Source of the DNA: Gammaproteobacteria bacterium
GTDB taxonomy: Bacteria; Pseudomonadota; Gammaproteobacteria; GCA-001735895
Assembly: GCA_024638385.1 (NCBI GenBank)
Contig: JAHEKJ010000016.1
Location: 1 to 44,690, forward strand
Reading direction: 5' to 3'
DNA: 44,690 nt
Shown here: in pieces, positions 11,742 to 25,809 of the stretch
Position numbering within the stretch: the stretch's first letter is position 1
Layout of the letters: each line of letters begins with the position of its first letter
Position numbers and translations under genes: made by a program
The notes under the pieces: generated by a model
Databases searched by the model: none
The model's input: only the letters and a program-made list of their open reading frames with translations
Told to the model about the DNA's origin: nothing

Positions 11742-14267
11742 ATGTCCTTTAATAAAACCTGGTTAAAACAAGACTGGTTCATCGGGCTGGTACTGATTCT
11801 GCTGTTTCTGATCTTCGCGGAAGCCGGCATGTTCGTGACGTTCGATCGCGGCGCCTACAATCTCGGCGTCAAGCTCGCGTCGGCGCGCGACCCGCACGAA
11901 GACATCGTCGTCGTCGCGGTCGACGACAAGTCGCTGCAATCGCTCGGCGCCTGGCCCTGGTCGCGCGACGTCCTCGCCGAGACCACGCAATTGCTGGCCA
12001 AGGCCAAGCCCAGCGTGATCGGTTTTACGATGCCGTTCGATACGCCACAGTACGAGGCCGGGCTGGCGTCGCTGGCTAATCTGCGCGAAACCCTGCGCAA
12101 GGAAAGAAAGCTGAGCCGACGCGTCAATCGTGCATTGCGCCACACCGAATCGACGCTGCACGGCGACGACAATCTCGCCGGCGCGTTCCGCAAGGGCGGA
12201 CGCATCGTGCTGGCCATGCCCTACATTTCGACCGCCAAGCCGATGCCGGGTATGACGACGTCGCTGCCCAAGTACATGCAGAAGTTCTCGCTCCCCAACG
12301 TGCGCATCAACGGCGCCGACGGCTGGAGCCTGAGCGCGCCCGACATCGTCCGCGCCGAGAAAATCTTTCCGCCGATCGAGAAGCTCGCGCGCCAGGTCGG
12401 CGGCATCGGCGTGATCGGCCACGGCGAGCACTTCGGTCGCGAGCCGTTGATCGTTCGCTATGGCCAGGAATTCCTGCCGTCGTTCGCGCTGATAATGTCG
12501 ACCCGCAGCAAGGGCCTGTCGATGCAGCATATCGAATCGCGCGCCAGCCTGAGCCCGGTGCTCGGCGGCAAGGACCTCGGCGCCGACCGTCATTTCCATA
12601 TCTATCCGCGCTTCTACGAGGATCGCGGCGGCAAGTCGGCCTTCAAGATCTATTCGCTGATCGACGTGCTCGACGGCAGCGTATCGTCGGTCTTCTTTCG
12701 CAACAAGATCGTGCTCGTCGGCCTGACCTCGCCGCGGCTTGCCCAACCGATGCTGACGCCGGCGGGCGATCGAATCTCGCCGACCGTCGCGACCGCGCAT
12801 GCGGTTTCGAGCCTGCTCAACGGCGAGGTCTTTCGCCTGCCGGAGTGGGCCGGCTGGGCGCTGCGCGGCCTGCTCGTCGGTGTCGGCCTGTACCTGATGT
12901 TCGTTCTCGGTCGTTTCCGCGCCAACACCGCCTTCTTCCTGAGCCTGTTTCTCGCCGTCATGATTCTGAACATGCACTTCGTGCTGATGAGTTCGCAGGC
13001 GCTGTGGGTGCCGATGATGAGCGCGATCGCGATGCTGCTGGTCGGACACCTGGTTCTCGGTCTGCGACATTTCGTAGACAACCGCCTGAGCCCGGTGCGG
13101 GCCGAGTTGACGGCGGCGAATCGCCAGCTCGGCCAGGCGCTGCACGCGCAGGGTCAGCTCGACCAGGCATTCGAGAAATTTCGCAGCTGCGAGCCCGACG
13201 CATCGCTGCTGAGCCAGGCCTACAATCTTGGTCTCGACTACGAGCGCAAGCGCCAGTTCAACAAGGCCGTATCGGTCTTCAAGTTCATCGAGGAAGTCGA
13301 TCCGAAATTCAATGACATCGGCGAACGCATCGAGCGCAACGAGCAAGCGTCGAAGACGGTCGTGCTCGGCGGCAACAAGAACAGCAACCTCGGCGAGACG
13401 CTGGTCGCCAGCAAGGCCGGCCTGCAAAAGCCGAAACTCGGCCGCTACGAGATCGACAGCGAGATCGGCCGCGGCGCGATGGGCATGGTCTACATGGGCC
13501 ACGACGACAAGATCGGGCGCAAGGTCGCGATCAAGACCATGGTCATCTCCGACGAGATCGAGGACGACATGCGCGACGAGGTGCGCACCCGCTTCTTCCG
13601 CGAGGCCGAGGCCGCGGGACGCCTCGATCACCCGAATATCGTCACCGTCTACGACGTCGGCGAGGAACAGGAACTCGCCTACATCGCGATGGACTATCTC
13701 AAGGGCAAGGATCTGACCGCCTACACCACGCAAAAGGCACGGCTGCCGGTCAGCGAGGTCTTCGATGTGATACACGACGTCGCGCTGGCGCTCGACTACG
13801 CGCATTCGCAGCACGTCGTGCATCGCGACATCAAGCCGGCCAACATCATTTACGACCGGGACAAGGGCACGGCCAGCCTGACCGACTTCGGCGTCGCCTG
13901 TCTGACCGACGCCAGCAAGACCAAGACCGGCACCGTGCTCGGCAGTCCGTACTACATGTCGCCCGAGCAGCTGGCCGGCAAGAAGGTCGACGGCCGCGCC
14001 GACCTGTTCTCGCTCGGCGTGACGCTCTACCAGATGATTACCAGCGAGTTGCCGTTCAAGGGCGACTCGATCGCCAACCTGATGTACAACATCGCCAACG
14101 AGCAGCACCTCGACGTGCGCCGCTACCGACAACTGCCGGCCTGCGTCGCCAACCTGATCAACAAGTCGTTGCAGAAAGATGCCGGCAGCCGCTACCAGTC
14201 GGGCAAGCAAATGGCCGCGGCGCTGAAACGTTGCCAGCCGCAAATACAGGAGATGGAAGCCGCCTGA
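11742..14267 (+). CDS. CHASE2-domain transmembrane serine/threonine protein kinase
   Basis: An 841-residue receptor kinase. An N-terminal transmembrane helix (about 15-35) precedes an extracytoplasmic CHASE2 sensor (about 45-370, with DIVVVAVDDKSLQSLGAWPWSR and KIVLVGLTS). Three membrane helices follow (about 375-440), then a short TPR-like region (LGQALHAQGQLDQAFEKF, FNKAVSVFKFIEEVDP), and a cytoplasmic kinase from about 567 to 835. The kinase looks active: glycine loop IGRGAMGMVY, Lys598 in VAIKTM, HRDIKPAN with Asp696, DFGVA (715-717) and GSPYYMSPEQL. The signal is unknown. The 285-base divergent gap before it holds AT-rich sequence but no promoter I would name, and no partner phosphatase gene is adjacent. 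Confidence 0.92.
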   Translation: MSFNKTWLKQDWFIGLVLILLFLIFAEAGMFVTFDRGAYNLGVKLASARDPHEDIVVVAVDDKSLQSLGAWPWSRDVLAETTQLLAKAKPSVIGFTMPFDTPQYEAGLASLANLRETLRKERKLSRRVNRALRHTESTLHGDDNLAGAFRKGGRIVLAMPYISTAKPMPGMTTSLPKYMQKFSLPNVRINGADGWSLSAPDIVRAEKIFPPIEKLARQVGGIGVIGHGEHFGREPLIVRYGQEFLPSFALIMSTRSKGLSMQHIESRASLSPVLGGKDLGADRHFHIYPRFYEDRGGKSAFKIYSLIDVLDGSVSSVFFRNKIVLVGLTSPRLAQPMLTPAGDRISPTVATAHAVSSLLNGEVFRLPEWAGWALRGLLVGVGLYLMFVLGRFRANTAFFLSLFLAVMILNMHFVLMSSQALWVPMMSAIAMLLVGHLVLGLRHFVDNRLSPVRAELTAANRQLGQALHAQGQLDQAFEKFRSCEPDASLLSQAYNLGLDYERKRQFNKAVSVFKFIEEVDPKFNDIGERIERNEQASKTVVLGGNKNSNLGETLVASKAGLQKPKLGRYEIDSEIGRGAMGMVYMGHDDKIGRKVAIKTMVISDEIEDDMRDEVRTRFFREAEAAGRLDHPNIVTVYDVGEEQELAYIAMDYLKGKDLTAYTTQKARLPVSEVFDVIHDVALALDYAHSQHVVHRDIKPANIIYDRDKGTASLTDFGVACLTDASKTKTGTVLGSPYYMSPEQLAGKKVDGRADLFSLGVTLYQMITSELPFKGDSIANLMYNIANEQHLDVRRYRQLPACVANLINKSLQKDAGSRYQSGKQMAAALKRCQPQIQEMEAA

Positions 14268-14277
14268 GCGGCCCGCG

Positions 14278-15705
14278 CTAATCCAGCCGTTTGAACCGTT
14301 CGAGCGCGCGCTCGCGCGTCGCCTTCAGATCCAGCATCGGCTCGGGATAATCGACGCCGAGTTCGATACCGGCCTCCTCGAGCACTTCCGGCTTCGCCTC
14401 CCAGGGTTTATGCCGGTATTTTTTCGGCAAGCCCTCGAGTTCGGGGCAATAGCGCACCAGGTAGTCGCCGTCGGGATCGAACTTCTCGCTTTGCAGTACC
14501 GGATTGAAAATCCGGAAATAAGGAGCCGCGTCGGCGCCCGAACCCGCGACCCATTGCCAGCTCGCGCTGTTATTGGCGAGGTCCGCGTCGACCAGACAAT
14601 CCCAGAACCAGTCCTCGCCGTGATGCCAGTGCACGAGCATGTTCTTGATCACAAACGAGGCCACGACCATGCGCACCCGATTGTGCATGTAGCCGGTTTG
14701 CCAGAGCTCGCGCATGCCGGCGTCGACGATCGGGAAGCCGGTGCGGCCGCGCTGCCAGGCCGGGATGTCGGCCTCGCTGGTGCGCCACTCGAAGCCGTCG
14801 AACTTCGAGTTGAAGTTTTTTCGCGGCAGCGTCGGGTTGTGGTAGAGCAGGTGATAGGAAAACTCGCGCCAGCCCAGCTCGCGCAGGAAATGCGCGGCGT
14901 TGCCGCCGGAATCGCGCAGGCCCTCGTGGTCGACGCGCTGCCAGACCTGGTGCGGCGATATCTCGCCGTGGTGTAGATGCGGCGACAGTCGCGAAGTCGT
15001 CGCCAGCGCCGGGAAGTCGCGGCCGTTCTTGTAGTCGCTGAGATTTTCCTCGCAGAAGCTGTCGAGCGCGGCCGCCGCGGCATCCTCGCCGACCCGCCAA
15101 TGGCGCATCATCGACGCATGCCAGTCGTGATCCGGCAACAGTTCGAGAGCATCGATCGAAGCGGCATAATCGACGTCGGCATCGGCATAATCGAGCCGCG
15201 CAGGGGGCTCGAGCGGGGCTCGCGGGGGCGTGCGCGGCAGGCAGCCCTTCTCGTAGAACGGCGTAAAGACCCTGTACGGCGTGCCGTCCTGCTTGCTGAC
15301 CTCCCACGGCTCCCACAGCAGCGATGCGTTGAAGCTGCGCACCTCGACGCCGCCCTGCTCGAGTTCGCGCTTGATGCGCGTATCGCGCTCGACGCGCCAG
15401 GGCTCGTAGCAGCGGTTCCAGAACACCGCGCGCACCGGCAGCTCGTCGGCGAGGCGCTCGAGAATCGCGCGCGCGTCGCCGTGGAACAGGCGCAGTTTGC
15501 CGGCGAGCGACGCATCGAGCGACTTCAGGGAATGATGCAGCCAGACGCGGCTCGCGGCGCCGGGCTTCCACTCGCCCGCGTCGTCGTCATCGAGGATGTA
15601 GATCGGCAGGATGTTGCCGAGTTCGGAGGCCGCCTTGAGCGCCGGGTTGTCGGCGCGACGCAGATCCTGGCGAAACCAGACGATGGTGATGGCCGAATCG
15701 GACAC
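14278..15705 (-). CDS. phrB: Deoxyribodipyrimidine photolyase, class I
   Basis: Light-dependent repair of cyclobutane pyrimidine dimers using FAD and an antenna chromophore. The protein is 475 residues, usual for class I. The N-terminal photolyase domain starts IVWFRQDLRRADNPAL. The FAD domain shows LGWREFSYHLLYHNP, GRTGFPIVDAGMRELWQTGYMHNR, MVVASFVIKNMLVHWHHGEDWFWD and DADLANNSASWQWVAGSG. Translation starts at a GTG (15705). It is the last gene of the minus-strand operon headed by the ECF sigma factor, 12 bases after the DUF523-DUF1722 gene. E. coli also pairs phrB with a DUF1722 gene (ybgA). Induction by the sigma factor is inferred from this placement. Confidence 0.94.
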   Translation of the reverse strand: MSDSAITIVWFRQDLRRADNPALKAASELGNILPIYILDDDDAGEWKPGAASRVWLHHSLKSLDASLAGKLRLFHGDARAILERLADELPVRAVFWNRCYEPWRVERDTRIKRELEQGGVEVRSFNASLLWEPWEVSKQDGTPYRVFTPFYEKGCLPRTPPRAPLEPPARLDYADADVDYAASIDALELLPDHDWHASMMRHWRVGEDAAAAALDSFCEENLSDYKNGRDFPALATTSRLSPHLHHGEISPHQVWQRVDHEGLRDSGGNAAHFLRELGWREFSYHLLYHNPTLPRKNFNSKFDGFEWRTSEADIPAWQRGRTGFPIVDAGMRELWQTGYMHNRVRMVVASFVIKNMLVHWHHGEDWFWDCLVDADLANNSASWQWVAGSGADAAPYFRIFNPVLQSEKFDPDGDYLVRYCPELEGLPKKYRHKPWEAKPEVLEEAGIELGVDYPEPMLDLKATRERALERFKRLD

Positions 15706-15717
15706 GATGGCGGCGGT

Positions 15718-16674
15718 TCAGAGCGAATTCAGCAGCATCAGCTCGTCGGGATGCGGCTGCATGTAATACGAGCGCTGAATGTATTCGTTCGGGCACTTGC
15801 GGAAATGGTGTCGCAGCAGCGTGATCGGCACGATCAGCGGCAGGCGGCCGAGGCGATAATTTTCGATACTCTCGCCGAGCTCCTGCTTGTCGTCGCGATC
15901 GAGGTCGTGCTTGAGGTAGCCGCGGATGTGTTCCAGCACGTTGACGTGGTTGGAGCGTTTGGCGAAGACTCTCAGAATTCGCATCATCTCGTCGAGGTAG
16001 CGCGGTCCGAAATCCTCGATGGCCCCGGCCTTGTGGGCTTCGGACAGCTCGCGGCCGAGCGCGCGCGCGCGGTTTTGATCGTGACTCATCAGGATTAGTT
16101 TGTGGCGCGCGTGGAAGTCGGTCAGCCCGGCCCAGTCGAGCCCGCTCGCGACGAGGTCGTGCCAGCGTTTGTTGATGTAGACTCGCTTGACGAAGCTTTC
16201 GCGCAACACCGGGTCGCCGAGCCGGCCCTCCTCTTCGACCGGCAGGGTCGGGAAATTCTGCATCATCGTCGCCGTGTAGAGACCGGCGCCATCGCGCTGC
16301 GCCATGTCCCCCCGATAGACCTTGACCCGCTCCATGCCGCAGCTGGGCGAATCTTTCTTGACGATATAGCCGAAGATGTCGCGCTGCCAGTCGCGCTGCG
16401 CGTGGGCGATCTCGATCAGCGGTTGCGTCACGTCGAGCTCGGCCGTCTTGTTGCCGACGGCGCGGATGGCGTCGCCGTCGGCAACCAGGCGAATCGTCTC
16501 GCGCGGAACCCCGAGCCCGATCGCGAGCTCCGGGCAGAACGGCCGGAAGCTGAAGTAGCGGCCGAGGGTGTCGAGGACGTACCGGTTTTGCTTGTGGCCG
16601 CCGTCGAAGCGCACCTTCTCGCCGAGCAGGCAGCTCGAAATGCCGAGCGGAATCTTCTCCGGTTGAACCGCCAC
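15718..16674 (-). CDS. DUF523 (TudS-like desulfidase) fused to DUF1722 (YbgA-like)
   Basis: A 318-residue, two-domain protein. The N-terminal DUF523 domain carries the conserved cysteine segments SSCLLGEKVRFDGGHK, FCPELAIGLGVPRE and KKDSPSCGMERVKVY. In TudS thiouracil desulfidases, family knowledge places a [4Fe-4S] cluster on three such cysteines. The C-terminal DUF1722 domain (about 190-315) shows DFHARHKLILMSHDQ and ends IVPITLLRHHFRK and QSYYMQPHP-like sequence. The start is a GTG at 16674 with AAGGG upstream. It sits between chrR and phrB in one operon. The DUF1722 function is unknown; a role in repairing or clearing photodamaged thio-nucleobases is inference. Confidence 0.88.
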   Translation of the reverse strand: MAVQPEKIPLGISSCLLGEKVRFDGGHKQNRYVLDTLGRYFSFRPFCPELAIGLGVPRETIRLVADGDAIRAVGNKTAELDVTQPLIEIAHAQRDWQRDIFGYIVKKDSPSCGMERVKVYRGDMAQRDGAGLYTATMMQNFPTLPVEEEGRLGDPVLRESFVKRVYINKRWHDLVASGLDWAGLTDFHARHKLILMSHDQNRARALGRELSEAHKAGAIEDFGPRYLDEMMRILRVFAKRSNHVNVLEHIRGYLKHDLDRDDKQELGESIENYRLGRLPLIVPITLLRHHFRKCPNEYIQRSYYMQPHPDELMLLNSL

Positions 16675-16684
16675 TGCGCCCTTG

Positions 16685-17341
16685 TCAGGCGTAGCTGCGG
16701 CGAACCAGCGGGTTCAGCAAGCGGGCGAAGAAACCGGTAAATCGGGGCGGCCCCTCGGTCACGGCGAGGCAAATACATTCGCGATCCTGCGTCGCGACCG
16801 GCGAGTGGTGATGATTGCCGTCGTTGAAGACGAAATCACCCTTTTGGTAAACGCCACGCTCGTCGGAAAAACTGCCCTCGAGGATGACCGTGTACTCGTC
16901 ACCGTCGTGGGTATGCGCCGGCGAGACGCCGCCGGGACGAATCCGGATCAGTTCGACCTTGGCGCCGTTGCTGTCGCGACACAGCTCGACGCTGTGGATA
17001 TCGGGCGAGACCCGCTTCCAGTCGAGGTGCGCGAAGTCGCTGGCGACGAACTGGCGCAGGCAGCGCGGCACCGACGGGTCGGTCGTGACCGCCGGCGGTT
17101 CTTCGTCGACCAGCGAATCGAGCCGCGCGAGCAGGTTCTCCTTGAGGCGCGACGAGGCCGGCGCCGGCTCGAGTTGCTGCATCAGCTCGCTACCGACGCG
17201 GTTGAGTCGTTGCAGTTTTTGTACGCAACCGGCGCAATGCTCCAGATGCGCCGAAACGCAAAGGGCCTGGCTCAGCGGCAGGCTGCCCGCCGAGTAGGCG
17301 GCCAGCAATTCATCTACAGGATGTTTCAATACTTGTTCCAT
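16685..17341 (-). CDS. chrR: ChrR-type zinc/cupin anti-sigma factor
   Basis: Binds and inactivates the ECF sigma factor until singlet oxygen or organic peroxide triggers release. The 218 residues match the two-domain ChrR plan. The N-terminal anti-sigma domain has zinc ligands His7, His32, Cys36 and Cys39, the same spacing as Rhodobacter ChrR. The C-terminal cupin has HTHDGDEYTVILEG with His143, His145 and Glu149, and NHHHS with His179 as the fourth ligand. All sensing ligands are therefore present. The start is 2 bases after the sigma stop, with GAGG as ribosome site, so the pair is tightly coupled. Confidence 0.95.
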   Translation of the reverse strand: MEQVLKHPVDELLAAYSAGSLPLSQALCVSAHLEHCAGCVQKLQRLNRVGSELMQQLEPAPASSRLKENLLARLDSLVDEEPPAVTTDPSVPRCLRQFVASDFAHLDWKRVSPDIHSVELCRDSNGAKVELIRIRPGGVSPAHTHDGDEYTVILEGSFSDERGVYQKGDFVFNDGNHHHSPVATQDRECICLAVTEGPPRFTGFFARLLNPLVRRSYA

Positions 17342-17343
17342 AA

Positions 17344-17922
17344 TTACCTCGCAACCAGTGCTTCGAGCTTTTTCAGCGCAAGCCGAACGCGGGACTTGAC
17401 GGTCCCGAGCGGCAGCTGCAGCTCTTCGCTGGCCTGTTGATGGCTTTTACCCTCCAGATAAACCTTGGTTAGAATTTCTGCTTGTTCGCGCGGCAGTTGT
17501 TTTAGACCTGCTCTTATCGTTTCCTCGGCCCGGCTTTGCTGAACCAGCTGAAACGGGCTCGGGCCTTCATCCTCGATGTCATCGAAGATGTGTGTCGGAT
17601 CGATCTCGCTGACGTAACGGCTGTTGCGCCGCAGGTAGTCGATTCGACAATTCCGCGCCAGCGTAAAGATCCACGTGTTAAGGTTGGCAAGCCGTGGATT
17701 GTATTTATCGGCTTTGAGCCAGACCCGGGTCATTACTTCCTGCACCAGTTCGTCGGCGACCAGGTCGGCACCGGGTTCGCGCGCCAGGCTGTAGGCGCGC
17801 AACATCGGCGCGTAATGATCGAAGAGCTCCGCGAACGCGGCCTTGTCGCGATCGGCGGCCACTTTCGCAATGTGCTGACTGAGGGTCGCGAGTTTCTCGC
17901 TCTTTGCTTTGGTAGTTTCCAT
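17344..17922 (-). CDS. ECF sigma factor of the ChrR-linked (RpoE/ECF11-like) group
   Basis: A 192-residue group IV sigma factor. Region 2 spans AFAELFDHYAPMLRAYSL through DELVQEVMTRVWLKADKYN and NTWIFTLARNCRIDYLRR. Region 4 is LKQLPREQAEILTKVYLEGKSHQQASEELQLPLGTVKSRVRLALKKLE. An upstream in-frame ATG at 17958 overlaps the predicted -10 element and could not be on the transcript, so the ATG at 17922 is chosen. It heads the operon sigma-chrR-tudS/DUF1722-phrB and is probably autoregulated through the promoter at 17986-17959. The partner ChrR strongly implies a singlet-oxygen or photo-oxidative regulon. Confidence 0.95.
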   Translation of the reverse strand: METTKAKSEKLATLSQHIAKVAADRDKAAFAELFDHYAPMLRAYSLAREPGADLVADELVQEVMTRVWLKADKYNPRLANLNTWIFTLARNCRIDYLRRNSRYVSEIDPTHIFDDIEDEGPSPFQLVQQSRAEETIRAGLKQLPREQAEILTKVYLEGKSHQQASEELQLPLGTVKSRVRLALKKLEALVAR

Positions 17923-17958
17923 AGTCCGATGTCGTTGGCCGTTTGGCTTGGTCGTCAT

Positions 17959-17986
17959 TATACGCTTGCGCGCAGGCCGTGGATCA
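17959..17986 (-). promoter_or_regulatory. ECF (ChrR-sigma) autoregulatory promoter
   Basis: On the minus strand, TGATCC (17986-17981), 16 bases, then CGTATA (17964-17959). The same architecture occurs at 17994 and 21836, all within this island. It agrees with the TGATCC / CGTA-type motif remembered for ChrR-linked sigma factors. Transcription would start near 17952, about 30 bases before the chosen sigma-factor start. Confidence 0.8.
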
Positions 17987-17993
17987 CTCGATT

Positions 17994-18021
17994 TGATCCA
18001 AAATCGCGCGGACGCCGTAGA
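17994..18021 (+). promoter_or_regulatory. ECF promoter for divergent lipid-modification operon
   Basis: On the plus strand, TGATCC (17994-17999), 16 bases, then CGTAGA (18016-18021). It lies 7 bases from the opposing sigma-operon -35 element, so the two promoters are back to back. The -10 differs by one base from the other two copies. The leader to the methyltransferase start at 18126 would be about 100 bases. Confidence 0.7.
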
Positions 18022-18096
18022 CTCACGGTGAAACGCGGGCGGTCTGCAGCACGCACAGCGTAAATCAGGCTTTGAATATAACCTTAGGGTCAGTTT

Positions 18097-18129
18097 ATGA
18101 ATTTATTGAAATACGGAGTCGGCCGATGA
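18097..18129 (+). CDS. Possible 10-codon leader ORF
   Basis: ATG at 18097 opens a 10-codon frame (MNLLKYGVGR) preceded by AGGG at a suitable distance. Its TGA overlaps the ATG of the methyltransferase (CGATGA). The frame lies in the leader of the predicted ECF transcript and is AT-rich compared with the flanks. It could couple or tune translation of the first gene, or be chance; only the sequence arrangement supports it. Confidence 0.3.
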   Translation: MNLLKYGVGR

Positions 18130-19190
18130 GCGCGGTTCAGCAGCGCGCGCTGGGTTGGGTCGAACAGGGCCTGGTTCCCGATCCGGTCGTTCGCGCCGGA
18201 ATCCGGCGACTGCTGGCGCAGCGCCTCGACGAAATCGAAAGCAACAGCGTCGATGCCGCGGCGCTGCGCACCGACGCATTTATCGAAATGATGGACGCGA
18301 GCCCGGCCGCGCTCTTGCCCGACAAGGCCAACGAGCAGCATTACGAGGTGCCGGCCGAATTCTTTGCCGAGGTTCTCGGCGATCACCGCAAGTACAGTTG
18401 TTGCTACTGGCCAGACGGCGTTGCGACGCTCGGACAGGCGGAAGCGGCGGCGCTCGAGGCGACCTGTGAACGCGCCGGCCTCGCCGACGGCATGCGAATT
18501 CTCGAGCTGGGATGCGGCTGGGGCTCGCTGACGCTGTGGATTGCGAGTCGCTACCCGCGCTCCGAGGTGACCGCCGTATCGAACTCCTCGGGGCAGCGGC
18601 AGCACATCGAGGCCGAAGCCGCGCGCCGCGGACTGGACAATCTGCGCGTCATTACCGCTGACATGAACGATTTCGACATCGACGAGCGGTTCGACCGCAT
18701 CGTGTCGCTGGAAATGTTCGAACACATGCGGAACTATCGCAGGCTGTTCGCACGCGTCCGCGACTGGCTCGTTCCGGGCGGACGTTTCTTCATGCATATT
18801 TTTTGTCACCGCCTGGTACCCTATGAATTCGTCGATCGCGATGCCAGCGACTGGATGAGCCGCTACTTTTTCAGCGGCGGAATCATGCCGAGCGACTCGC
18901 TGCCGTCACGCTTCCAGGACCATCTGCGGCTTGTGCGTCAATGGCGCTGGGACGGCCGGCACTACGAACGGACATTGAACGCGTGGCTGGCGCGCATGGA
19001 CGACCGTAAATCGACGGTCATGCCAATTCTCGAGCGCACTTACGGCGCCGAAGCCGACCTCTGGTGGGTTCGCTGGCGGCTGTTCTTCATGGCCTGTGCC
19101 GAGCTGTTCGGCTACCGCGACGGCCAGGAGTGGTGGGTCAGCCATTACCTGTTCGAGCGCCCGCCCGCGGCGGCGGGCGAGACCGCATGA
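18126..19190 (+). CDS. SAM-dependent methyltransferase, cyclopropane-fatty-acid-synthase-like
   Basis: A 354-residue class I methyltransferase of the CFA-synthase/coclaurine-N-methyltransferase-like branch. Family features are EQHYEVPAEFFAEVLGDHRKYSCCYW, SAM motif LELGCGWGS (126-134), and VSLEMFEHMRNYRRLFARV. The branch differs from true CFA synthase, which is also present at the end of this gene set. The ATG at 18126 has GGAG seven bases upstream; an in-frame extension to 18072 is rejected. It is the first gene of the divergent operon, directly behind the ECF promoter. The substrate is probably a phospholipid acyl chain or small amine; which one cannot be told here. Confidence 0.88.
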   Translation: MSAVQQRALGWVEQGLVPDPVVRAGIRRLLAQRLDEIESNSVDAAALRTDAFIEMMDASPAALLPDKANEQHYEVPAEFFAEVLGDHRKYSCCYWPDGVATLGQAEAAALEATCERAGLADGMRILELGCGWGSLTLWIASRYPRSEVTAVSNSSGQRQHIEAEAARRGLDNLRVITADMNDFDIDERFDRIVSLEMFEHMRNYRRLFARVRDWLVPGGRFFMHIFCHRLVPYEFVDRDASDWMSRYFFSGGIMPSDSLPSRFQDHLRLVRQWRWDGRHYERTLNAWLARMDDRKSTVMPILERTYGAEADLWWVRWRLFFMACAELFGYRDGQEWWVSHYLFERPPAAAGETA

Positions 19191-19735
19191 GGCTGCTGGC
19201 GAACATCGTCATCTACCAGGTCTGCTGGCTCGCCTGCATTCTAGGCGGCGCCAACGACCTGCCGCTCGCCGGCGTGGCGGCGGTCGCGCTCGCGGTCGCC
19301 TGGCATCTACGCCTCGCCGACGCGCCGCGGGCCGAAATCGCATTGCTCGTCGTGGCCGGGCTCGCCGGCGCGGTCTGGGATAGCCTGCTGGTTGCCGCCG
19401 GCTGGCTGGTTTATCCGTCCGGCACGCTGATAGCCGGCACCGCGCCTTACTGGATCGTCGCGCTGTGGGTCGGTTTCGCGACGACCTTCAACGTCAGCTT
19501 GCGTTACTTCAAGCCGCGGCTGGCGCTCGCGGCAATGCTCGGCGCCATCGGCGGTCCGCTGGCGTTTCTCGCCGGCGAGCGGCTCGGCGGCGTGACGTTT
19601 ACCGACACGACCACCGCGATGGTTGCGCTCGCGCTCGGCTGGGCGACGCTGATGCCGGCGATGATGCTCGCCGCGCGTCGCCTCAACGGTTTTCGCGACG
19701 ACGATATGCCGGTGGCTGCGGTCGCCGAAAATTGA
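19187..19735 (+). CDS. DUF2878 inner-membrane protein
   Basis: A 182-residue integral membrane protein starting at the ATG at 19187, which overlaps the stop of the preceding gene (ATGA). Five or six hydrophobic helices fill most of its length, with YQVCWLACILGGANDLPLAGV near the start and APYWIVALWVGFATTFNVSLRYF mid-protein. This matches the DUF2878 pattern. From memory, DUF2878 proteins accompany Cfa, DUF1365 and FAD genes in ChrR-type clusters, and that is the context here. Biochemical function is unknown; a role in acyl-chain or membrane modification is inferred. Confidence 0.8.
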   Translation: MRLLANIVIYQVCWLACILGGANDLPLAGVAAVALAVAWHLRLADAPRAEIALLVVAGLAGAVWDSLLVAAGWLVYPSGTLIAGTAPYWIVALWVGFATTFNVSLRYFKPRLALAAMLGAIGGPLAFLAGERLGGVTFTDTTTAMVALALGWATLMPAMMLAARRLNGFRDDDMPVAAVAEN

Positions 19736-19742
19736 GGAAATC

Positions 19743-20552
19743 ATGTTCGATCTGACGAGTTATGTAATCGGCCTCGGCGTCATTCTGACGGCGGCCACTG
19801 GCTTTTGGCTGGTCAGCCTGCTCAAGCGCGACGTCAGCATCGTCGACAGCCTCTGGTCGCTGATGTTTCTGTTCGCCGCGCTGACTTATGCGATCACGTT
19901 GCCGGAACCCGGGCCGCGCTCGACGCTGGTGCTGATTTTGGTCGCGCTGTGGGCGCTGCGCCTGGGCGGCTACATCACCTGGCGCAACTGGGGCGAGGAC
20001 GAAGACCGGCGCTACCGGAAAATCCGCGCCGACAACGAACCCAACTTCGAGCTCAAGAGCCTGTTCATCGTCTTCCTGCTGCAGGGCGTCATCGCCTGGG
20101 TCGTGTCGTTGCCGTTGCTGGTTGCGCAGGCGAGCGCCGCGCCGTTCGGGCTCGTCGATTACGCCGGCATCGCGCTGTGGGTCATCGGCATGATCTTCGA
20201 GGCGGGCGGCGATTTCCAGCTGGCCCGCTTCAAGTCGGATCCGGAAAACCAGGACAAGGTCATGGACCAGGGCCTGTGGCGTTACACGCGGCACCCGAAT
20301 TACTTCGGCAACGCGTGCCTGTGGTGGGGATTCGGCCTGATCGCGCTCTCCGCCGGCGCCTGGTGGGCGCTGGTCTCGCCGGTCATCATGACGATCCTGC
20401 TGCTCAAGGTGTCGGGTGTTTCGCTGCTCGAACAGGATATCGGCGAGCGCCGGCCGAAATATGCCGACTACGTCGAGCGTACCAGCGCGTTCTTCCCACT
20501 GCCGCCGAAGGGCGTCGCCGATGGCAAAAAGGAGCAAACCCAAAATGGTTAG
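19743..20552 (+). CDS. DUF1295 membrane protein (steroid 5-alpha-reductase-like)
   Basis: A 269-residue polytopic membrane protein. The C-terminal motif GLWRYTRHPNYFGNACLWWGFG, followed by YADYVERTSAFFPLPPK, is the hallmark of DUF1295 and the steroid-reductase/isoprenylcysteine-methyltransferase superfamily. LKRDVSIVDSLWSLMF and LGGYITWRNWGEDEDRRY are also conserved-looking. It starts 7 bases after DUF2878. Members are thought to act on lipid substrates in the membrane with NADPH or SAM; the reaction here is not known. Its place in the island suggests reduction or modification of oxidised or unsaturated acyl chains. Confidence 0.85.
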   Translation: MFDLTSYVIGLGVILTAATGFWLVSLLKRDVSIVDSLWSLMFLFAALTYAITLPEPGPRSTLVLILVALWALRLGGYITWRNWGEDEDRRYRKIRADNEPNFELKSLFIVFLLQGVIAWVVSLPLLVAQASAAPFGLVDYAGIALWVIGMIFEAGGDFQLARFKSDPENQDKVMDQGLWRYTRHPNYFGNACLWWGFGLIALSAGAWWALVSPVIMTILLLKVSGVSLLEQDIGERRPKYADYVERTSAFFPLPPKGVADGKKEQTQNG

Positions 20553-21288
20553 TCGAAACTTGATACGGACAATTCTCGTTACCGGTATGCTCGCGCTGCC
20601 CGGTCTGGCGGCCGCGACCACCGGGAGCGCCGACGAGTTGCTGTTCCGGGTAATGCTGGATGACAAGGATATCGGCGTGCACCGCTTCAGCGTCGACCGT
20701 CGTGACGATGGCGAACGGGTCGATATTCAGGCCGACTTCGACGTGACCTTCTTCGCCATCCCGGTGTATAGCTACGATCATCGAAACCGCGAGGTCTGGC
20801 GCGATGGCTGCCTCGCGCGCATCGAATCGACGACCGACGACAATGGCGACGAATTCCGCGTCGACGGCGAGGACGTCGGCGACCGCTTCGTTGTCTCGAC
20901 GCGAAGCGAGCGGGTCGAGCTCGACGCCGAATGCGTCATGTCGTTTGCCTACTGGAACCGCGACTTCCTGACCCAGGGCCGCCTGCTGAACGCGCAAACC
21001 GGCGAGTACCTGCCGGTCAGCCTCGAGGATCTCGGCACCGAGCAACTTCGCCTCGGCGAAAACTCGGTAACGGCGCAGGGCTACCGGCTGTCGAATCGCG
21101 ACGAGGAAATCGACATCGATGTCTGGTACGAGTCCGGAACGGGACGCTGGCTGTCGCTCGAATCCCGCGTCGGCGGTGAGCGCACCCTGCGCTACCTGCC
21201 GCTCGCCGGTGCCGCCGCCGAGCGCGCGCGGCAGCGGCTGGCGTCGAACTCGAAGGTGGCGGCGACGATGCAGGAACGGCGGAAGTAG
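20545..21288 (+). CDS. Secreted protein of unknown function (DUF6134-like)
   Basis: A 247-residue exported protein from the ATG at 20545, which follows a strong AAAAAGGAGC ribosome site and overlaps the DUF1295 stop. An ATG at 20521 in frame is an alternative. A signal peptide is evident (RNLIRTILVTGMLALPGLAAA). The mature part is predicted all-beta: LLFRVMLDDKDIGVHRFSV, FDVTFFAIPVYSYDHRNREVW, and QTGEYLPVSLEDLG. Two cysteines (DGCLAR, DAECVM) could form a disulfide. The look is that of periplasmic beta-barrel lipid-interacting proteins such as DUF6134/DUF3108; the assignment is tentative. It lies in the island between DUF1295 and the lipocalin. Confidence 0.75.
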   Translation: MVSRNLIRTILVTGMLALPGLAAATTGSADELLFRVMLDDKDIGVHRFSVDRRDDGERVDIQADFDVTFFAIPVYSYDHRNREVWRDGCLARIESTTDDNGDEFRVDGEDVGDRFVVSTRSERVELDAECVMSFAYWNRDFLTQGRLLNAQTGEYLPVSLEDLGTEQLRLGENSVTAQGYRLSNRDEEIDIDVWYESGTGRWLSLESRVGGERTLRYLPLAGAAAERARQRLASNSKVAATMQERRK

Positions 21289-21291
21289 ACG

Positions 21292-21819
21292 ATGCAAGCG
21301 ATCATCCGTGCCGGAATGCTTGCGCTCGCGGCCGCGCTGTTGGGCGCCTGTGCGACGCCGGCGCCGATTCGCACCGTCGACCACGTCGATCTCGAGCGTT
21401 TCATGGGCGACTGGTACGTCATCGCCAACATCCCGACCTTTCTCGAAAAGGGCGCGCACAATGCGGTCGAATCCTACCGGCTCGACGACGACGGCACGAT
21501 CGCGACGACGTTTACTTTCAGGGACGGCGGCTTCGATGGCGAGGTCGAAACCTACCATCCCCGTGGCTTCGTCCGCGACGACGAATCCAACGCGGTCTGG
21601 GGCATGCAATTCATCTGGCCGTTCAAGGCCGAGTACCGCATCGTCTACTTGACGCCGGATTACACCCAGACCATCATCGGCCGCAGCCAGCGCGACTACG
21701 TCTGGATCATGGCGCGTACCCCCGTGATACCTGCGGCCGATTTGGAAGCGATGCTTTCGTTGCTCGCCGACGAAGGCTATGATGTTTCGCGCATCCAGAG
21801 AGTCCCGCAGCGCTGGTAG
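21292..21819 (+). CDS. blc: Blc-type bacterial lipocalin lipoprotein
   Basis: A 175-residue lipoprotein. The N-terminus has a lipobox (LLGAC) with Cys20 as the lipidation site. The lipocalin start motif FMGDWYVIANIPTFLEKGAHNAVE is clear, and EYRIVYLTPDYTQTIIGRSQRDYVWIMARTP matches the Blc C-terminal strands. Blc proteins in the outer membrane bind fatty acids or lysophospholipids. The gene starts 3 bases after its neighbour. In this setting it probably handles lipids released or altered during photo-oxidative damage. Confidence 0.92.
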   Translation: MQAIIRAGMLALAAALLGACATPAPIRTVDHVDLERFMGDWYVIANIPTFLEKGAHNAVESYRLDDDGTIATTFTFRDGGFDGEVETYHPRGFVRDDESNAVWGMQFIWPFKAEYRIVYLTPDYTQTIIGRSQRDYVWIMARTPVIPAADLEAMLSLLADEGYDVSRIQRVPQRW

Positions 21820-21835
21820 CGCGCGGATTACGGGC

Positions 21836-21864
21836 TGATCCAACACGCTTGTCGGGGCGTATAA
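21836..21864 (+). promoter_or_regulatory. Internal ECF promoter before the NTF2-like gene
   Basis: TGATCC (21836-21841), 16 bases, then CGTATAA (21858-21864). The elements and spacing match the sigma-operon promoter exactly. It lies 16 bases after the lipocalin stop and 37 bases before the next gene, so the second half of the island should have its own ECF-driven transcript. Confidence 0.8.
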
Positions 21865-21901: not shown

Positions 21902-22330
21902 ATGAACTCCGAACAGGCCATGATCGAGCGCTTCAAGGAATACTTCCGCGTCCTGCACCGCGCGGACCTGTCACGCTTGCGTGAATTTTACGCTGCCAAC
22001 GTCGTGTTTCGCGATCCGGTGCACGAGATTCGCGGGATCGTCGAGCTCGAGGACTACTACGCCGGGCTCTGCGCCGACCTCGGCGAATGCCGCTTCGAGT
22101 ACCTCGACGAATTTGTCGGCGAGGGTTCGGCCTACATCAAGTGGATCATGCACTTCAGGCACCCGAAACTACGCAACCGCCCGATCAGCGTGCGCGGCGT
22201 CAGCCACCTCAAGTGGAGCGACAGGATCGAGTTTCAGGAGGATTTCTACGACATGGGCGCCATGCTCTACGAGCAGCTACCGGTGCTCGGTAACGTCACG
22301 CGCTGGCTGCGGCTGCGGCTGGCCAGCTAG
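21902..22330 (+). CDS. NTF2-like / SnoaL-like protein
   Basis: A 142-residue cytosolic protein with the NTF2-like fold pattern: an N-terminal helical pair (FKEYFRVLHRADLSRLREFYA), the strand ANVVFRDPVHEIRGIVELEDYYAGL, and a curved sheet ending GVSHLKWSDRIEFQEDFYDMGAMLYEQLPVLG. Such domains serve as small isomerases, dehydratases or binding modules; no catalytic role can be read here. It is first in the second ECF-driven unit. Relatives are regular members of ChrR-linked clusters, from memory. Confidence 0.85.
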   Translation: MNSEQAMIERFKEYFRVLHRADLSRLREFYAANVVFRDPVHEIRGIVELEDYYAGLCADLGECRFEYLDEFVGEGSAYIKWIMHFRHPKLRNRPISVRGVSHLKWSDRIEFQEDFYDMGAMLYEQLPVLGNVTRWLRLRLAS

Positions 22331-22339
22331 GAAGGGCCG

Positions 22340-22486
22340 GTGCGCGAGGGCAATATCGTCCGGATTTCCGGCGCGAACAGCGGCGCCGGCGGCTGCCTTG
22401 CGGTCGAGGCCGGCGCGCGCGGCGGCCAGGTCTTCGCGTCGGGTCGCAGCCAGGCGGCGCCGCGCCTCCCGGGAGGCTGCCGATGA
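22340..22486 (+). pseudogene. Remnant of a short-chain dehydrogenase/reductase
   Basis: GTG at 22340 opens 48 codons whose first 37 read like an SDR N-terminus: NIVRISGANSGAGGCLAVEA, then GARGGQVFASGRS. This parallels the usual TGASSGIG glycine motif, helix, and strand ending in an Arg-Ser cofactor site. After that the frame ends in a few low-complexity residues and a TGA overlapping the start of the FAD gene (ATGA). An intact SDR has about 250 residues, so most of the gene is gone. SDR genes are expected next to the FAD gene in related clusters. A chance frame or a retained short peptide remains possible. Confidence 0.6.
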
Positions 22487-23772
22487 AGATCGCGATCGTC
22501 GGCGCCGGCATCTCCGGCCTGGCCGCCGCCTGGTATCTCGACCCGCACCACGAGATCACCGTCTACGAGTCGGCGCCGCGCATCGGCGGGCACACCGCGA
22601 CGATCGACGTGCGCCACGACGGTCGCGATTACGCGATCGACACCGGCTTCATCGTCTACAACGACTGGACCTACCCTCAATTTATCGAGCTGCTCGACGC
22701 CCTCGGCGTCGCAACGCAGCCGACCGAAATGAGTTTCAGCGTGCGCTGCGACGCGAGCGGGCTCGAGTATGGCGGCAACAACCTCAACACACTGTTCGCG
22801 CAGCGGCGCAACCTGCTGCGGCCGTCCTATTACCGTATGCTGGCCGATATCCTGCGCTTCAACCGCGAAGCGGTGCGTGATCTCGACGCCGGCCGCATCG
22901 CGCGGGCGACGACGCTCGGCGGGTACCTGCGCGCCAATGGCTACGGCGACGGTTTCGTCTACCAGTACCTGTTGCCGATGGGCTCGGCGATCTGGTCGGC
23001 GTCGACCGACGGCATGCTCGATTTTCCGCTGCTGTTCTTCGTCCGCTTTTTCAAAAACCACGGTCTGCTCAGCGTCAACGATCGACCGCAATGGCGCGTC
23101 ATCAAGGGCGGTTCGGGGCAATACCTCGATCCGCTGACGCGCGGTTATGCCGACCGCATCGTCTGCAACGCCGACCTCGCCGCGGTGCGGCGCCGCAACG
23201 ACGGCGTCGAGCTGATCATGGGCGACGGCCATCGTGCGCACTTCGACGAGGTCGTGTTCGCCTGTCACAGCGACCAGGCCCTGGCGTTGCTGGCCGACGC
23301 GAGCGCCGCCGAGCGGCAGTCGCTGGCTGCGATTCCGTATCAGCGCAACGAGGTCGTGCTGCATACCGACACGAACCTGCTGCCGCGCAAGCGGCTGGCG
23401 TGGTCGAGCTGGAACTACTGGTTGCGCCAGCGGTTCCAGGCGCGCGCGGTGCTGACCTACGACATGAATATCCTGCAGGGCATCGAGTCGCAAACGACCT
23501 TTTGCGTGACGCTCAATGCCTCCGAGGCGATCGCCCCCGAAAAGGTAATCGACACCTTCGAATACAGCCATCCGGTATTTTCGCTGGCGTCGGTCGACGC
23601 CGCGCGCCGTATCGACGAGTTCAACGGGCTCAACCGCACCTGGTTTGCGGGCGCCTGGCTCGGCAACGGGTTTCACGAAGACGGCGTGCGCAGCGCGCGC
23701 CGCGTGGCCGACGCGATCGCGCGCCGCGAAGCCGCCGCGCCGGCCACGGAACGGAGGCCCGTGCATGCATAG
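22483..23772 (+). CDS. FAD-dependent amine-oxidase-type oxidoreductase
   Basis: A 429-residue flavoprotein. The Rossmann motif is at the N-terminus (IVGAGISGLAAAWYL, Gly7, Gly9, Gly12), followed by YESAPRIGGHTATID and DTGFIVYNDWTYPQF. The C-terminal FAD contact is WFAGAWLGNGFHEDGVRSA. The family is the 'NAD/FAD-binding protein' placed beside DUF1365 and Cfa. Relatives act as lipid desaturases or oxidases; in Rhodobacter the ChrR regulon leads to furan fatty acids through a methylase, a desaturase and an oxygen-inserting enzyme. Whether this protein is that desaturase cannot be settled here. Its start overlaps the SDR remnant stop. Confidence 0.9.
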   Translation: MKIAIVGAGISGLAAAWYLDPHHEITVYESAPRIGGHTATIDVRHDGRDYAIDTGFIVYNDWTYPQFIELLDALGVATQPTEMSFSVRCDASGLEYGGNNLNTLFAQRRNLLRPSYYRMLADILRFNREAVRDLDAGRIARATTLGGYLRANGYGDGFVYQYLLPMGSAIWSASTDGMLDFPLLFFVRFFKNHGLLSVNDRPQWRVIKGGSGQYLDPLTRGYADRIVCNADLAAVRRRNDGVELIMGDGHRAHFDEVVFACHSDQALALLADASAAERQSLAAIPYQRNEVVLHTDTNLLPRKRLAWSSWNYWLRQRFQARAVLTYDMNILQGIESQTTFCVTLNASEAIAPEKVIDTFEYSHPVFSLASVDAARRIDEFNGLNRTWFAGAWLGNGFHEDGVRSARRVADAIARREAAAPATERRPVHA

Positions 23773-24556
23773 CGCGATCTACCAGGGCTTCGTGCGTCAC
23801 CGCCGATTCGTGCCGCGCGCGCACCGCTTTTGTTACTCGGTGTTCATGATGTATCTCGATCTCGACGAGCTCGACGAGGTCCTCGCGCTGTCGCCGCTGT
23901 GGTCGGACCGGCCGTGGCGGCCGGCGCGCTTTCGCCGCGCCGACTTTCTCGGCGACCCGGCGGTGCCGCTCAAGCAGGCCGTCGGCGAGCGCATCTTTGC
24001 GGCGACCGGCGAGCGTCACGACGGCCCGGTGCGGCTGCTCGCCAACCTGCGCTACCTGGGGTACCTGATCAATCCGATCGCCGTGTACTATTGCTACGAC
24101 CGCGGCGGGCAATTGCGTTACATGATTTCCGAGGTGACCAATACGCCGTGGGGCGAGCGGGTCAGCTACGTTTTACGTTGCGATCCGGGGCAGCGCTTTC
24201 AGCGCATCGAGTTCCAGAAGGAAATGCATGTTTCGCCCTTCAACCCGATGACGATGACCTACCAGTGGTGCAGCAACGATCCGGCGCGCACACTCAGCCT
24301 GAATCTCGAGGCTTGCCGCGACGGCGAGACCCATGTAGACGCGACGCTCGCGCTACGGCGGCACGAAATCGATCGCGCCAGCCTCAACCGGACGATACTG
24401 CGCTACCCGTGGATGACGGCCAAGGTGGCCGGCACGATTTACTGGCAGGCCTTGAAGCTCTGGCTCAAGAAAACCCCCTTTTTCGACCACCCGGCGACCG
24501 CAGGAGGCGCGTCGTTCGACGAGACCGATATCACCCGACTGAAGACCAAGCCATGA
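23765..24556 (+). CDS. DUF1365 protein
   Basis: A 263-residue protein starting at the ATG at 23765, inside the end of the FAD gene. DUF1365 features are AIYQGFVRHRRFVPRAHRFCYSVFMMYLDLDEL, VRLLANLRYLGYLINPIAVYYCYD, EVTNTPWGERVSYVL and FQKEMHVSPFNPMTMTYQW. No signal peptide is seen. DUF1365 genes almost always lie between a FAD oxidoreductase and Cfa, as here, and are thought to act with them on membrane acyl chains. The reaction is unknown. Confidence 0.92.
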   Translation: MHSAIYQGFVRHRRFVPRAHRFCYSVFMMYLDLDELDEVLALSPLWSDRPWRPARFRRADFLGDPAVPLKQAVGERIFAATGERHDGPVRLLANLRYLGYLINPIAVYYCYDRGGQLRYMISEVTNTPWGERVSYVLRCDPGQRFQRIEFQKEMHVSPFNPMTMTYQWCSNDPARTLSLNLEACRDGETHVDATLALRRHEIDRASLNRTILRYPWMTAKVAGTIYWQALKLWLKKTPFFDHPATAGGASFDETDITRLKTKP

Positions 24557-25809
24557 CCACGATTCATCAATCCGCCATCGGCGGCAACCCCAAGCCGGGG
24601 CTGCTCGAAAATTTTGCCCGGCGCCAGCTGCAAAAGCACCTGCGCCTGCTCGCGCGCGGCAGCCTCGTGATCGAGGATGGCGACGAGCGACTCGAATTCG
24701 GCCAGGCACCCGGCGAATCCGACATCAATGCGCACATCGTCGTTCACGACTCGTGCGCCTATCGCGATTTCGTCTTCGGCGGTTCGATCGGCGGCGCCGA
24801 GGCCTATATGCTCGGCAAGTGGAGCACGCCCGACCTGCTCGAAGTCGTGCGCGTGATGACGGCCAACCTCGACGTACTCAACGGCGTGGACGATACGCGC
24901 TTCGTCGGTCGCCAGCTCGTCGACAAGGTACTTCACTGGCTCAACCGCAACAGCGCGCGCCGGGCGCGCGAGAATATTTCCCGTCATTACGATCTCAGCA
25001 ACGATTTCTTCGCGCTGTTTCTCGACCCGGAGATGATGTATTCGGCGGCGATTTATCCGAGTGACGGGACCGGTCTCGACGAGGCCGCGGTGCACAAGCT
25101 CGACGTCATCTGCCGCAAGCTCGAGCTCGAACCCGCCGATCACCTGCTCGAGATCGGCACCGGCTGGGGCGGACTCGCGATTCATGCCGCGCGTCACTAC
25201 GGTTGCCGCGTGACGACGACGACGATTTCGCGCGCGCAGTTCGAGGCCGCCAGTCGGCGGGTGCGCGAAGCCGGGCTCGACGACCGCGTAACGGTGCTGT
25301 TCGAGGATTACCGTGATCTCGAGGGCCGGTTCGACAAGCTGGTGTCGGTGGAGATGATCGAGGCAGTCGGCCACGAGTACTACCGGCAGTATTTCAGCGG
25401 TTGCGCGTCGTTGTTGAAAGACGACGGCCTGATGTTGTTGCAGGCGATTACGATTCCGGAACAGCGTTTCGAGTACGCGCAGAAATCGGTCGATTTCATC
25501 CAGAAATACATCTTTCCGGGCGGCTCGCTGCCGAGCCACGAGGCCATACTCACGGCGATGCGCAAGCATACCGACCTGGTCATGGTCGGCATGCAGGAGA
25601 TCGGCCTCGACTATGCGCGTACGCTCGCCGACTGGCGCGGACGATTCCTCGCACGGCTCGACGAAGTGCGCGCGCTCGGCTTCGACGACAGCTTCATCCG
25701 CATGTGGCACTACTACCTGTGTTACTGCGAGGGCGGCTTTCGCGAGCGCGTCATCGGCACCGCGCAAATCCTGATGGCGAAGCCGAGCTGGCGCCCGGCG
25801 TCCGCCTGA
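24553..25809 (+). CDS. cfa: Cyclopropane-fatty-acyl-phospholipid synthase
   Basis: Adds a methylene group from S-adenosylmethionine to cis double bonds of phospholipid acyl chains at the inner membrane. The protein is 418 residues. Family features: NISRHYDLSNDFFALFLDPEMMYS, SAM motif LEIGTGWGG (199-207), SVEMIEAVGHEYY, QKYIFPGGSLPS, and YYLCYCEGGFRERVIG, where Cys392 aligns with the active-site cysteine of E. coli Cfa. It overlaps the DUF1365 stop (ATGA) and closes the island. Induction of Cfa by ChrR-linked sigma factors is known in Rhodobacter. A related branch (UfaM) methylates without ring closure, so a methyl-branched product is also possible. Confidence 0.92.
   Translation: MTTIHQSAIGGNPKPGLLENFARRQLQKHLRLLARGSLVIEDGDERLEFGQAPGESDINAHIVVHDSCAYRDFVFGGSIGGAEAYMLGKWSTPDLLEVVRVMTANLDVLNGVDDTRFVGRQLVDKVLHWLNRNSARRARENISRHYDLSNDFFALFLDPEMMYSAAIYPSDGTGLDEAAVHKLDVICRKLELEPADHLLEIGTGWGGLAIHAARHYGCRVTTTTISRAQFEAASRRVREAGLDDRVTVLFEDYRDLEGRFDKLVSVEMIEAVGHEYYRQYFSGCASLLKDDGLMLLQAITIPEQRFEYAQKSVDFIQKYIFPGGSLPSHEAILTAMRKHTDLVMVGMQEIGLDYARTLADWRGRFLARLDEVRALGFDDSFIRMWHYYLCYCEGGFRERVIGTAQILMAKPSWRPASA

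Follow-up and report, generated by a model that had tools for sequence, protein, structure and literature searches.

Three probable promoters of one kind at an ECF11 sigma factor/ChrR locus of an uncultured gammaproteobacterium, and a predicted regulon that includes rpoH

Do three matching promoter-like signals around one sigma factor gene mark a genuine regulon, and does that regulon end at the locus that carries them? The question is raised by a 44,690-nucleotide stretch of gammaproteobacterial DNA (assembly GCA_024638385.1, contig JAHEKJ010000016.1, positions 1 to 44,690; hereafter the window), in which a minus-strand gene for an extracytoplasmic function (ECF) sigma factor lies back to back with a run of plus-strand genes. 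A first-pass annotation, made from the letters of the window, had read the arrangement as an island with its own regulator, sensor and three output promoters. The best explanation, in which we place high confidence, is a stress switch formed by an ECF11 sigma factor and its anti-sigma factor ChrR, with three cognate promoters. The support throughout comes from comparison of sequences, within the window, across its genome and among its relatives (labels beginning with G and L are our handles for genomes and loci).

Three probable promoters and their regulator

Scanning the window for exact TGATCC-N16-CGTA (N16 being a spacing of 16 bases) yielded three matches, at 17961-17986 (-), 17994-18019 (+) and 21836-21861 (+), compared with a mean of 0.04 and a largest count of 1 in 100 dinucleotide shuffles. 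With the complete -10 boxes included, the ECF11-type promoter P1 spans 17959..17986 on the minus strand upstream of the sigma operon (-35 TGATCC at 17986-17981, 16 bp, -10 CGTATA at 17964-17959). P2 spans 17994..18021 on the plus strand upstream of a five-gene block that begins with cfa1 (-35 TGATCC at 17994-17999, 16 bp, -10 CGTAGA at 18016-18021), and P3 spans 21836..21863, also on the plus strand, upstream of a SnoaL/NTF2-like gene (-35 TGATCC at 21836-21841, 16 bp, -10 CGTATA at 21858-21863). The first-pass annotation had reported these three sites with their shared spacing and -10 strings, and had noted that the other TGATCC copies it checked in the window lack CGTA at that distance; the scan reproduces both observations, as there is no fourth match. 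Its broader description is also supported as far as an autoregulated ECF sigma factor, its sensor ChrR and a set of three like promoters are concerned, with the amendment that P1 should be counted as feedback as well as output, because it drives the sigma gene itself.

The same signal is known from studied systems. TGATCC-N16-CGTA is the published consensus of the Pseudomonas syringae ECF11 factor, obtained through chromatin immunoprecipitation sequencing (PMC5507510), and TGATCC-N16-CGTATT, with a mapped transcript start, is given for Shewanella RpoE2 in the relevant part of PMC4336711. As the 16-spaced consensus had already been published for the P. syringae factor, the core of the first-pass reading is correct and describes a system of known type. 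The three matching signals in the window are very probably real promoters of an ECF11-type light- and oxygen-stress regulator.

The proteins point in the same direction. The sigma factor (17344..17922, minus strand, 192 amino acids, Pfam regions r2 and r4) has as its best PDB match 2q1z_A, the RpoE/SigE protein of Rhodobacter sphaeroides (E 8e-29; runner-up 2e-13), and its ECF11 class is assigned through this match, not through an ECF11-specific hidden Markov model. Separated from it by 2 bp in the same operon is the gene for its anti-sigma partner ChrR (16685..17341, minus strand), which has an N-terminal zinc domain and a cupin domain, scores 183.7 bits against the TIGR02451 cut-off of 124.5, contains Cupin_7 and matches PDB 2z2s_B over residues 6-204 of 218 (E 3e-30). 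A histidine, an H-x3-C-x2-C motif, a cupin H-x-H-x3-E motif and a further histidine align with R. sphaeroides ChrR, residues that we take to be the zinc ligands of the latter. With R. sphaeroides SigE and ChrR as the nearest solved structures, and with ChrR above the TIGR02451 cut-off, the locus is by protein similarity an ECF11 sigma/ChrR system, and the ECF11 hallmark of TGATCC-N16-CGTA before the sigma factor's own gene is found at 17961-17986. The longest open reading frame for the sigma factor begins at an ATG at 17958, which could not be translated from a predicted P1 transcript because it immediately adjoins the -10 box. The ATG at 17922, with which the starts of the relatives align, is the most likely start.

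The motif across the genome and its association with the sigma gene

The genome that contains the window (4.25 Mb, 91% complete) carries 16 exact TGATCC-N16-CGTA sites, compared with an average of 4.57 for the 14 remaining spacings from N10 to N24 (80 sites in total over the range; largest 9, at N15; Poisson P 2e-5). Eleven of the 16 lie ahead of genes and five inside genes. Three of the eleven are P1-P3, and the remaining eight, all outside the window, precede rpoH (L001), an esterase (L006), a short-chain dehydrogenase/reductase (SDR; L007), a SOUL protein (L008), a 104-amino-acid protein without a Pfam match (L009), a fasciclin protein (L012), a glutathione-S-transferase-like protein (L013) and an Fe/Mn superoxide dismutase (L015). 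The refuting condition that the first-pass annotation had named, a motif placed at random with no enrichment ahead of genes, does not refute it, given the enrichment of N16 over other spacings and the placement of sites in the genomes compared below. The notion of a regulon contained in its own island is not supported, given the eight further sites just ahead of genes elsewhere in the genome. The regulon probably extends past the locus to at least eight units, rpoH among them.

This predicted ECF11 regulon of uncultured gammaproteobacteria has good statistical support, and related genomes that have or lack the sigma gene serve as a natural control. The sigma gene is present at 67% identity or more in 19 of the 31 genomes of the window's genus, while the other 12 have matches near 30% or none. 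The 19 sigma-bearing congeners contain 305 N16 sites versus 92.3 per control spacing (N17-N26), and the 12 sigma-less congeners 66 versus 53.5 (Mann-Whitney P 1.5e-5). Placement relative to genes was compared for 82 of the 95 sites of six sigma-bearing genomes (G000, G001, G003, G004, G005 and G013) and 34 of the 36 sites of six sigma-less ones (G007-G012); the 13 sites left out of the first set sit at the sigma loci of five genomes and comprise 10 paired promoters and three sites within DUF1365 genes. Sites ahead of genes numbered 42/82 in the sigma-bearing set and 0/34 in the sigma-less set (Fisher 6e-9), sites inside genes 35/82 and 27/34, and unplaced sites 5 and 7.

Several points weigh against this reading of the counts. 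Gene positions came from a home-made gene caller, and the upstream count is 41 rather than 42 because one such site (L245) falls within a truncated DUF1365 gene and belongs with the in-gene sites. Of the 35 in-gene and 5 unplaced sites in the sigma-bearing set, many are probably chance occurrences. G016 has N16 sites, including one ahead of rpoH (L086), yet no sigma gene was found in it, which may reflect recent loss of the sigma gene or an assembly gap. G020 has the sigma gene and shows no N16 excess (ratio 0.77), no exact P1 and no site before rpoH. The genomes are related, so the tests are incompletely independent, and all of the support is of one kind, drawn from sequence.

That the three window sites are chance or composition matches is nevertheless extremely improbable, for although a background of such matches is visible in the 66 sites of the sigma-less congeners and in the in-gene sites of the sigma-bearing ones, 0.04 were expected in the window, the same places are kept in relatives, and the upstream placement in sigma-bearing genomes argues strongly against it. 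It is also very unlikely that the promoters, though genuine, belong to another ECF factor, such as an ECF02 sigma-E, with the ECF11 gene as a passenger. An ECF02 RpoE is indeed encoded in 29 of the 31 congeners, the window genome included, but the N16 excess tracks the ECF11 gene and not this near-universal factor, ECF02-type sites differ in sequence (GAACTT...), and the consensus found here equals the one that the cited reports give for ECF11 factors.

The SDR gene with a site in the window genome heads a run of genes for glutathione peroxidase (GPx), DUF3429, a FolB/FolX-type protein, a FolM-like SDR and GTP cyclohydrolase I (Pfam assignments, made in the window genome only). A similar run, judged by N-terminal sequences, carries three N16 sites in each of G001 and G003 and two in G005. 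The run belongs to a second cluster of ECF11-type sites (L280:1059-8628; L281, L282 and L283), together with genes for a methyltransferase, a pyridoxal phosphate-dependent decarboxylase, an EamA protein and an esterase. Pterin synthesis genes thus fall within this cluster and, as predicted from the sites, under the photo-oxidative regulator.

A probable mosaic locus with facing promoters

The layout was compared across 20 sigma loci, taken from 18 congeneric relatives. The sigma gene directly faces the SnoaL gene in 18 of them; L116 has no SnoaL arm, and in L131 the contig stops at the locus. An exact site precedes the sigma gene in 18 of the 19 loci with the upstream region on the contig (it is missing in L129), and one precedes SnoaL in all 18 loci that have this gene; in 17 of these, 3-6 bp separate it from the sigma promoter. 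Both promoters are therefore found in 17 of the 19 loci (16 genomes, G026 having two) as well as in the window, whereas L116 has the sigma promoter only and L129 the SnoaL promoter only. Longer loci continue with genes for an SDR (read in L112 only), an amine oxidase, DUF1365, cfa2 and a distant DUF2878.

In the window, five genes at 18126-21819 lie between the sigma promoter and the SnoaL promoter. The first, cfa1 (18126..19190, with an alternative start TTG at 18072), encodes a cyclopropane-synthase-like methyltransferase (PF02353), and is followed on the same plus strand by genes for a DUF2878 membrane protein (19187..19735), a DUF1295 membrane protein (19743..20552), a DUF6134 protein (20536..21288, start uncertain) and a Blc-type lipocalin (21292..21819), all four assigned through Pfam. 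The block is absent from the other 30 congeners, in which cfa1 has only two weak matches (32-35% identity, both in G024). Two genomes of another family have it beside the sigma gene with the order of its genes unchanged (type-B loci L158 and L159, which also appear in our set as the pair L136 and L135), and these loci carry a site at the place of P2 before cfa1. In a sample of 398 genomes from the phylum, relatives of cfa1, often beside DUF1295, occur in 32 further genomes, and an N16 site precedes the cfa1 relative in one of 19 such loci (L172:2581-2606, genome G756, of another family). In gene trees, the window's sigma factor (support 0.90) and DUF1365 (0.97) group with the genus, and cfa1 (1.0) and cfa2 (0.999) with type B; the chrR and amine-oxidase trees do not settle the placement of the window genes.

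Taken together, this suggests that the locus is a mosaic of two ECF11 locus types. The block sits between the sigma and SnoaL promoters, which face each other directly in relatives, so P3, now 3.8 kb from P1, would be the ancestral SnoaL promoter and the displaced partner of P1, and P2 would have arrived with the block or arisen at it. The alternative of an ancestral three-promoter layout, from which the other genomes have since lost the cfa1 block, is unlikely. Type-B loci with the same block do exist in another family, cfa1 relatives are scattered through the phylum sample, two of the trees do not resolve and loss is always possible, but the block is missing from all 30 other congeners, 18 of which have the sigma gene, and the split of the resolved trees between genus and type B argues for insertion. 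The locus as a whole was also considered as a mobile or acquired island and rejected, since 19 of the 31 congeners have it and, in the eight relatives' loci with both sides seen, it lies between the same CHASE2-kinase and radical-SAM genes. By these comparisons, only the five genes at 18126-21819 are foreign to the genus. The CHASE2-domain serine/threonine protein kinase gene, at 11742-14267 in the window, neighbours the locus in most of the relatives' loci that are long enough.

The remaining genes complete the two arms. The sigma operon continues on the minus strand with a third gene for a 2-thiouracil desulfurase-like (TudS) plus DUF1722 protein (15718..16674; Pfam), which follows chrR in most relatives' loci (not in L130), and a fourth for a DNA photolyase (14278..15705; Pfam), at the same place in most relatives' loci (not in L129 or L130). 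On the plus strand, P3 is followed by the SnoaL_2/NTF2-like gene (21902..22330; Pfam), which in relatives is divergent from the sigma gene. Next come genes for a flavin amine oxidase of RSP1091 type (22483..23772; Pfam, the RSP1091 correspondence by description only), DUF1365, of RSP1090 type by description (23765..24556), and cfa2, of cyclopropane fatty-acyl-phospholipid synthase type and below the TIGR equivalog cut-offs (24553..25809). Between the SnoaL and amine oxidase genes, where L112 has an intact SDR, lies a decayed SDR remnant (22340..22482), recognised by setting its three-frame translation with stops, including the frame with NIVRISGANSGAGGCLAVEAGARGGQVFASGRS, beside the L112 protein.

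P1 and P2 point in opposite directions, their -35 boxes 7 bp apart, and in all 18 genus loci with facing promoters, the window included, this gap is 3-7 bp. The footprint of an RNA polymerase holoenzyme is large enough for two of them to overlap at 7 bp, so two polymerases could probably not bind P1 and P2 together, and the two arms would be expected to compete. Among loci from outside the genus, five (L157, L158, L159, L162 and L167) have a gap of 1-8 bp and five others (L163, L164, L166, L168 and L169) gaps of 26, 31, 33, 70 or 309 bp, and a scan that also allowed TGATCT and N17 found no second site in L161, L165, L170 and L171. These wider gaps and the four loci lacking a second exact site are what might be expected if the close spacing were mere compaction with no regulatory effect, an explanation that we regard as quite possible, if somewhat less than even in probability, given that short gaps, of 3-7 bp within the genus and of 1-8 bp in L157, L158, L159, L162 and L167, are kept though the surrounding sequence changes. 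The arrangement bears on whether ECF promoters placed head to head compete with one another and thereby adjust feedback against output.

A mechanism consistent with these observations can be proposed. In this family the sigma factor is bound by ChrR, and singlet oxygen or hydroperoxide leads to degradation of the anti-sigma factor, as described in a review (Donohue 2019, PMC6852236). In the window's organism, zinc-bearing ChrR would likewise bind the sigma factor at rest, and singlet oxygen or organic hydroperoxides would cause loss of ChrR and release of the sigma factor. Free sigma factor would then fire P1, for its own operon with chrR, the TudS/DUF1722 gene and photolyase; P2, for cfa1-DUF2878-DUF1295-DUF6134-lipocalin; P3, for SnoaL, amine oxidase, DUF1365 and cfa2; and at least eight units elsewhere, including rpoH. 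A polymerase on P1 or P2 would block the other promoter, dividing output between feedback and effectors, and a block arriving, together with its promoter P2, from a second type of ECF11 locus would have displaced P3 from P1 and freed it from competition with P1.

The family, the motif and the core targets are already known; what this comparison would add is the mosaic locus, the head-to-head promoters, the predicted rpoH link and the relatives' putative in-gene promoter. The ECF11 core regulon is given in PMC5507510 as photolyase, amine oxidase, RSP1090, Cfa, an SDR and an RSP1088-like lipoprotein. Photolyase, amine oxidase, DUF1365 and Cfa are present behind sites in the window, matched by description and not by alignment. 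The window resembles R. sphaeroides RpoE-ChrR (with its core regulon, furan fatty acids, photolyase and RpoHII cascade) in the type of sigma/anti-sigma pair, in the photolyase, amine oxidase, DUF1365-type and Cfa targets and in a link to an RpoH factor, and differs in that one locus holds most of the targets and the SDR of the core set has decayed. P. syringae DC3000 (PSPTO_1043/1042) shares the identical consensus and has a phrB-to-cfa operon among its main targets, but its sigma and effector genes are described in PMC5507510 as lying in three separate loci, whereas those of the window face each other. In Shewanella oneidensis MR-1, where according to the relevant part of PMC4336711 the RpoE2-ChrR genes SO_1986 (rpoE2) and SO_1987 both have sites, a periplasmic GPx is a target, like the GPx of the second site cluster, and that part notes no cfa1-type block beside the sigma gene, unlike the window.

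A predicted rpoH link and a promoter motif inside DUF1365

The rpoH gene of the window genome encodes an ordinary sigma-32 (TIGR02392, 391 bits versus a cut-off of 323) and has an ECF11-type site about 173 bp and a sigma-E-type site about 80 bp before its start (L284:8341-8366 (-); L082). Among congeners with more than 200 bp of sequence upstream of rpoH, an N16 site lies 172-177 bp before the start in 13 of 15 sigma-bearing genomes, two of the 13 reading TGATCT, versus 1 of 10 sigma-less genomes, the lone case being G016 (Fisher 2e-4). The sigma-bearing L090, with only 197 bp upstream of rpoH, also has the site, and L083, a sigma-bearing miss, reads CGATCC-N16-CGTATA, one base off. A sigma-E-type GAAC-box is found 77-108 bp upstream of rpoH in 12/12 regions tested (of 27 full regions), in genomes with and without the ECF11 gene. 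A second, ECF11-dedicated RpoH paralogue was considered and rejected, as the protein is sigma-32 by TIGR02392 and other congener matches are at most 33% identical.

In a search of 15 ECF11-bearing genomes gathered as outside the genus, 14 of which yielded rpoH, the site was absent in 13. The remaining one, L318, has the TGATCT form and is congener G023 again (same coordinates), so it is not outside the genus. Because the other 13 have no rpoH site, the ECF11-rpoH wiring looks particular to the window's genus, and it bears on whether photo-oxidative stress reaches the gammaproteobacterial heat-shock regulon via rpoH. The wired gene differs from that of R. sphaeroides in being ordinary sigma-32 and not a second paralogue. 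The main text of PMC5507510 does not mention rpoH for P. syringae DC3000, and the relevant part of PMC4336711 lists rpoH under ECF02 RpoE in S. oneidensis, unlike the window's genus. The listings and passages retrieved from the open-licence PMC literature searched describe neither a gammaproteobacterial rpoH controlled by an ECF11 factor nor an in-gene ECF11 promoter, the latter being the second feature that the relatives appear to have.

In 11 of the 20 relatives' loci, an N16 site lies inside DUF1365, about 350 bp before cfa2. This extra site, some 3 kb from the sigma gene, had been a candidate for a conserved intergenic third promoter, which was rejected on finding it within the gene. The peptide at the site is C-D-P-x4-Q-R, and the motif depends on TGT, GAT and CGT as its codons. 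It is carried by 16 of the 31 distinct DUF1365 genes at ECF11 loci (the window's is one of the 31), versus 1.09 expected from each locus's codon usage; shared ancestry inflates the count of 16. A coding coincidence was considered and the codon test speaks against it. By origin, with L160 counted as a congener, the motif is present in 11/16 relatives of the genus and 5/14 loci outside it (L112, L113, L115, L117, L119, L120, L122, L123, L125, L128, L129, L158, L159, L166, L170 and L171). Control DUF1365 genes came from 29 loci of a class sample, leaving out L289 and L290, which are type-B ECF11 loci and both have the motif. The motif was found in 0/27 of these controls, and at the 25 placeable sites C-D-P occurred in none and D-P in one (L291); their flanks, searched over 1.5 kb, showed neither a sigma nor a chrR gene.

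These two features combine in a reading to which we give slightly better than even credence. In this genus ECF11-ChrR would have captured the single rpoH to form a two-input photo-oxidative and envelope-stress node, independently repeating the Rhodobacter RpoE-RpoHII cascade, and the relatives' promoter inside DUF1365 ahead of cfa2 would have shaped both amino acids and codons, to be lost in the window while P2 was gained. The in-gene motif bears on whether a promoter kept inside coding sequence costs codon and amino-acid freedom. In the window's own DUF1365 (about 24181-24206) the peptide is kept, as CDPGQRFQRI, and the motif of many relatives is absent because the codons are TGC and CGC.

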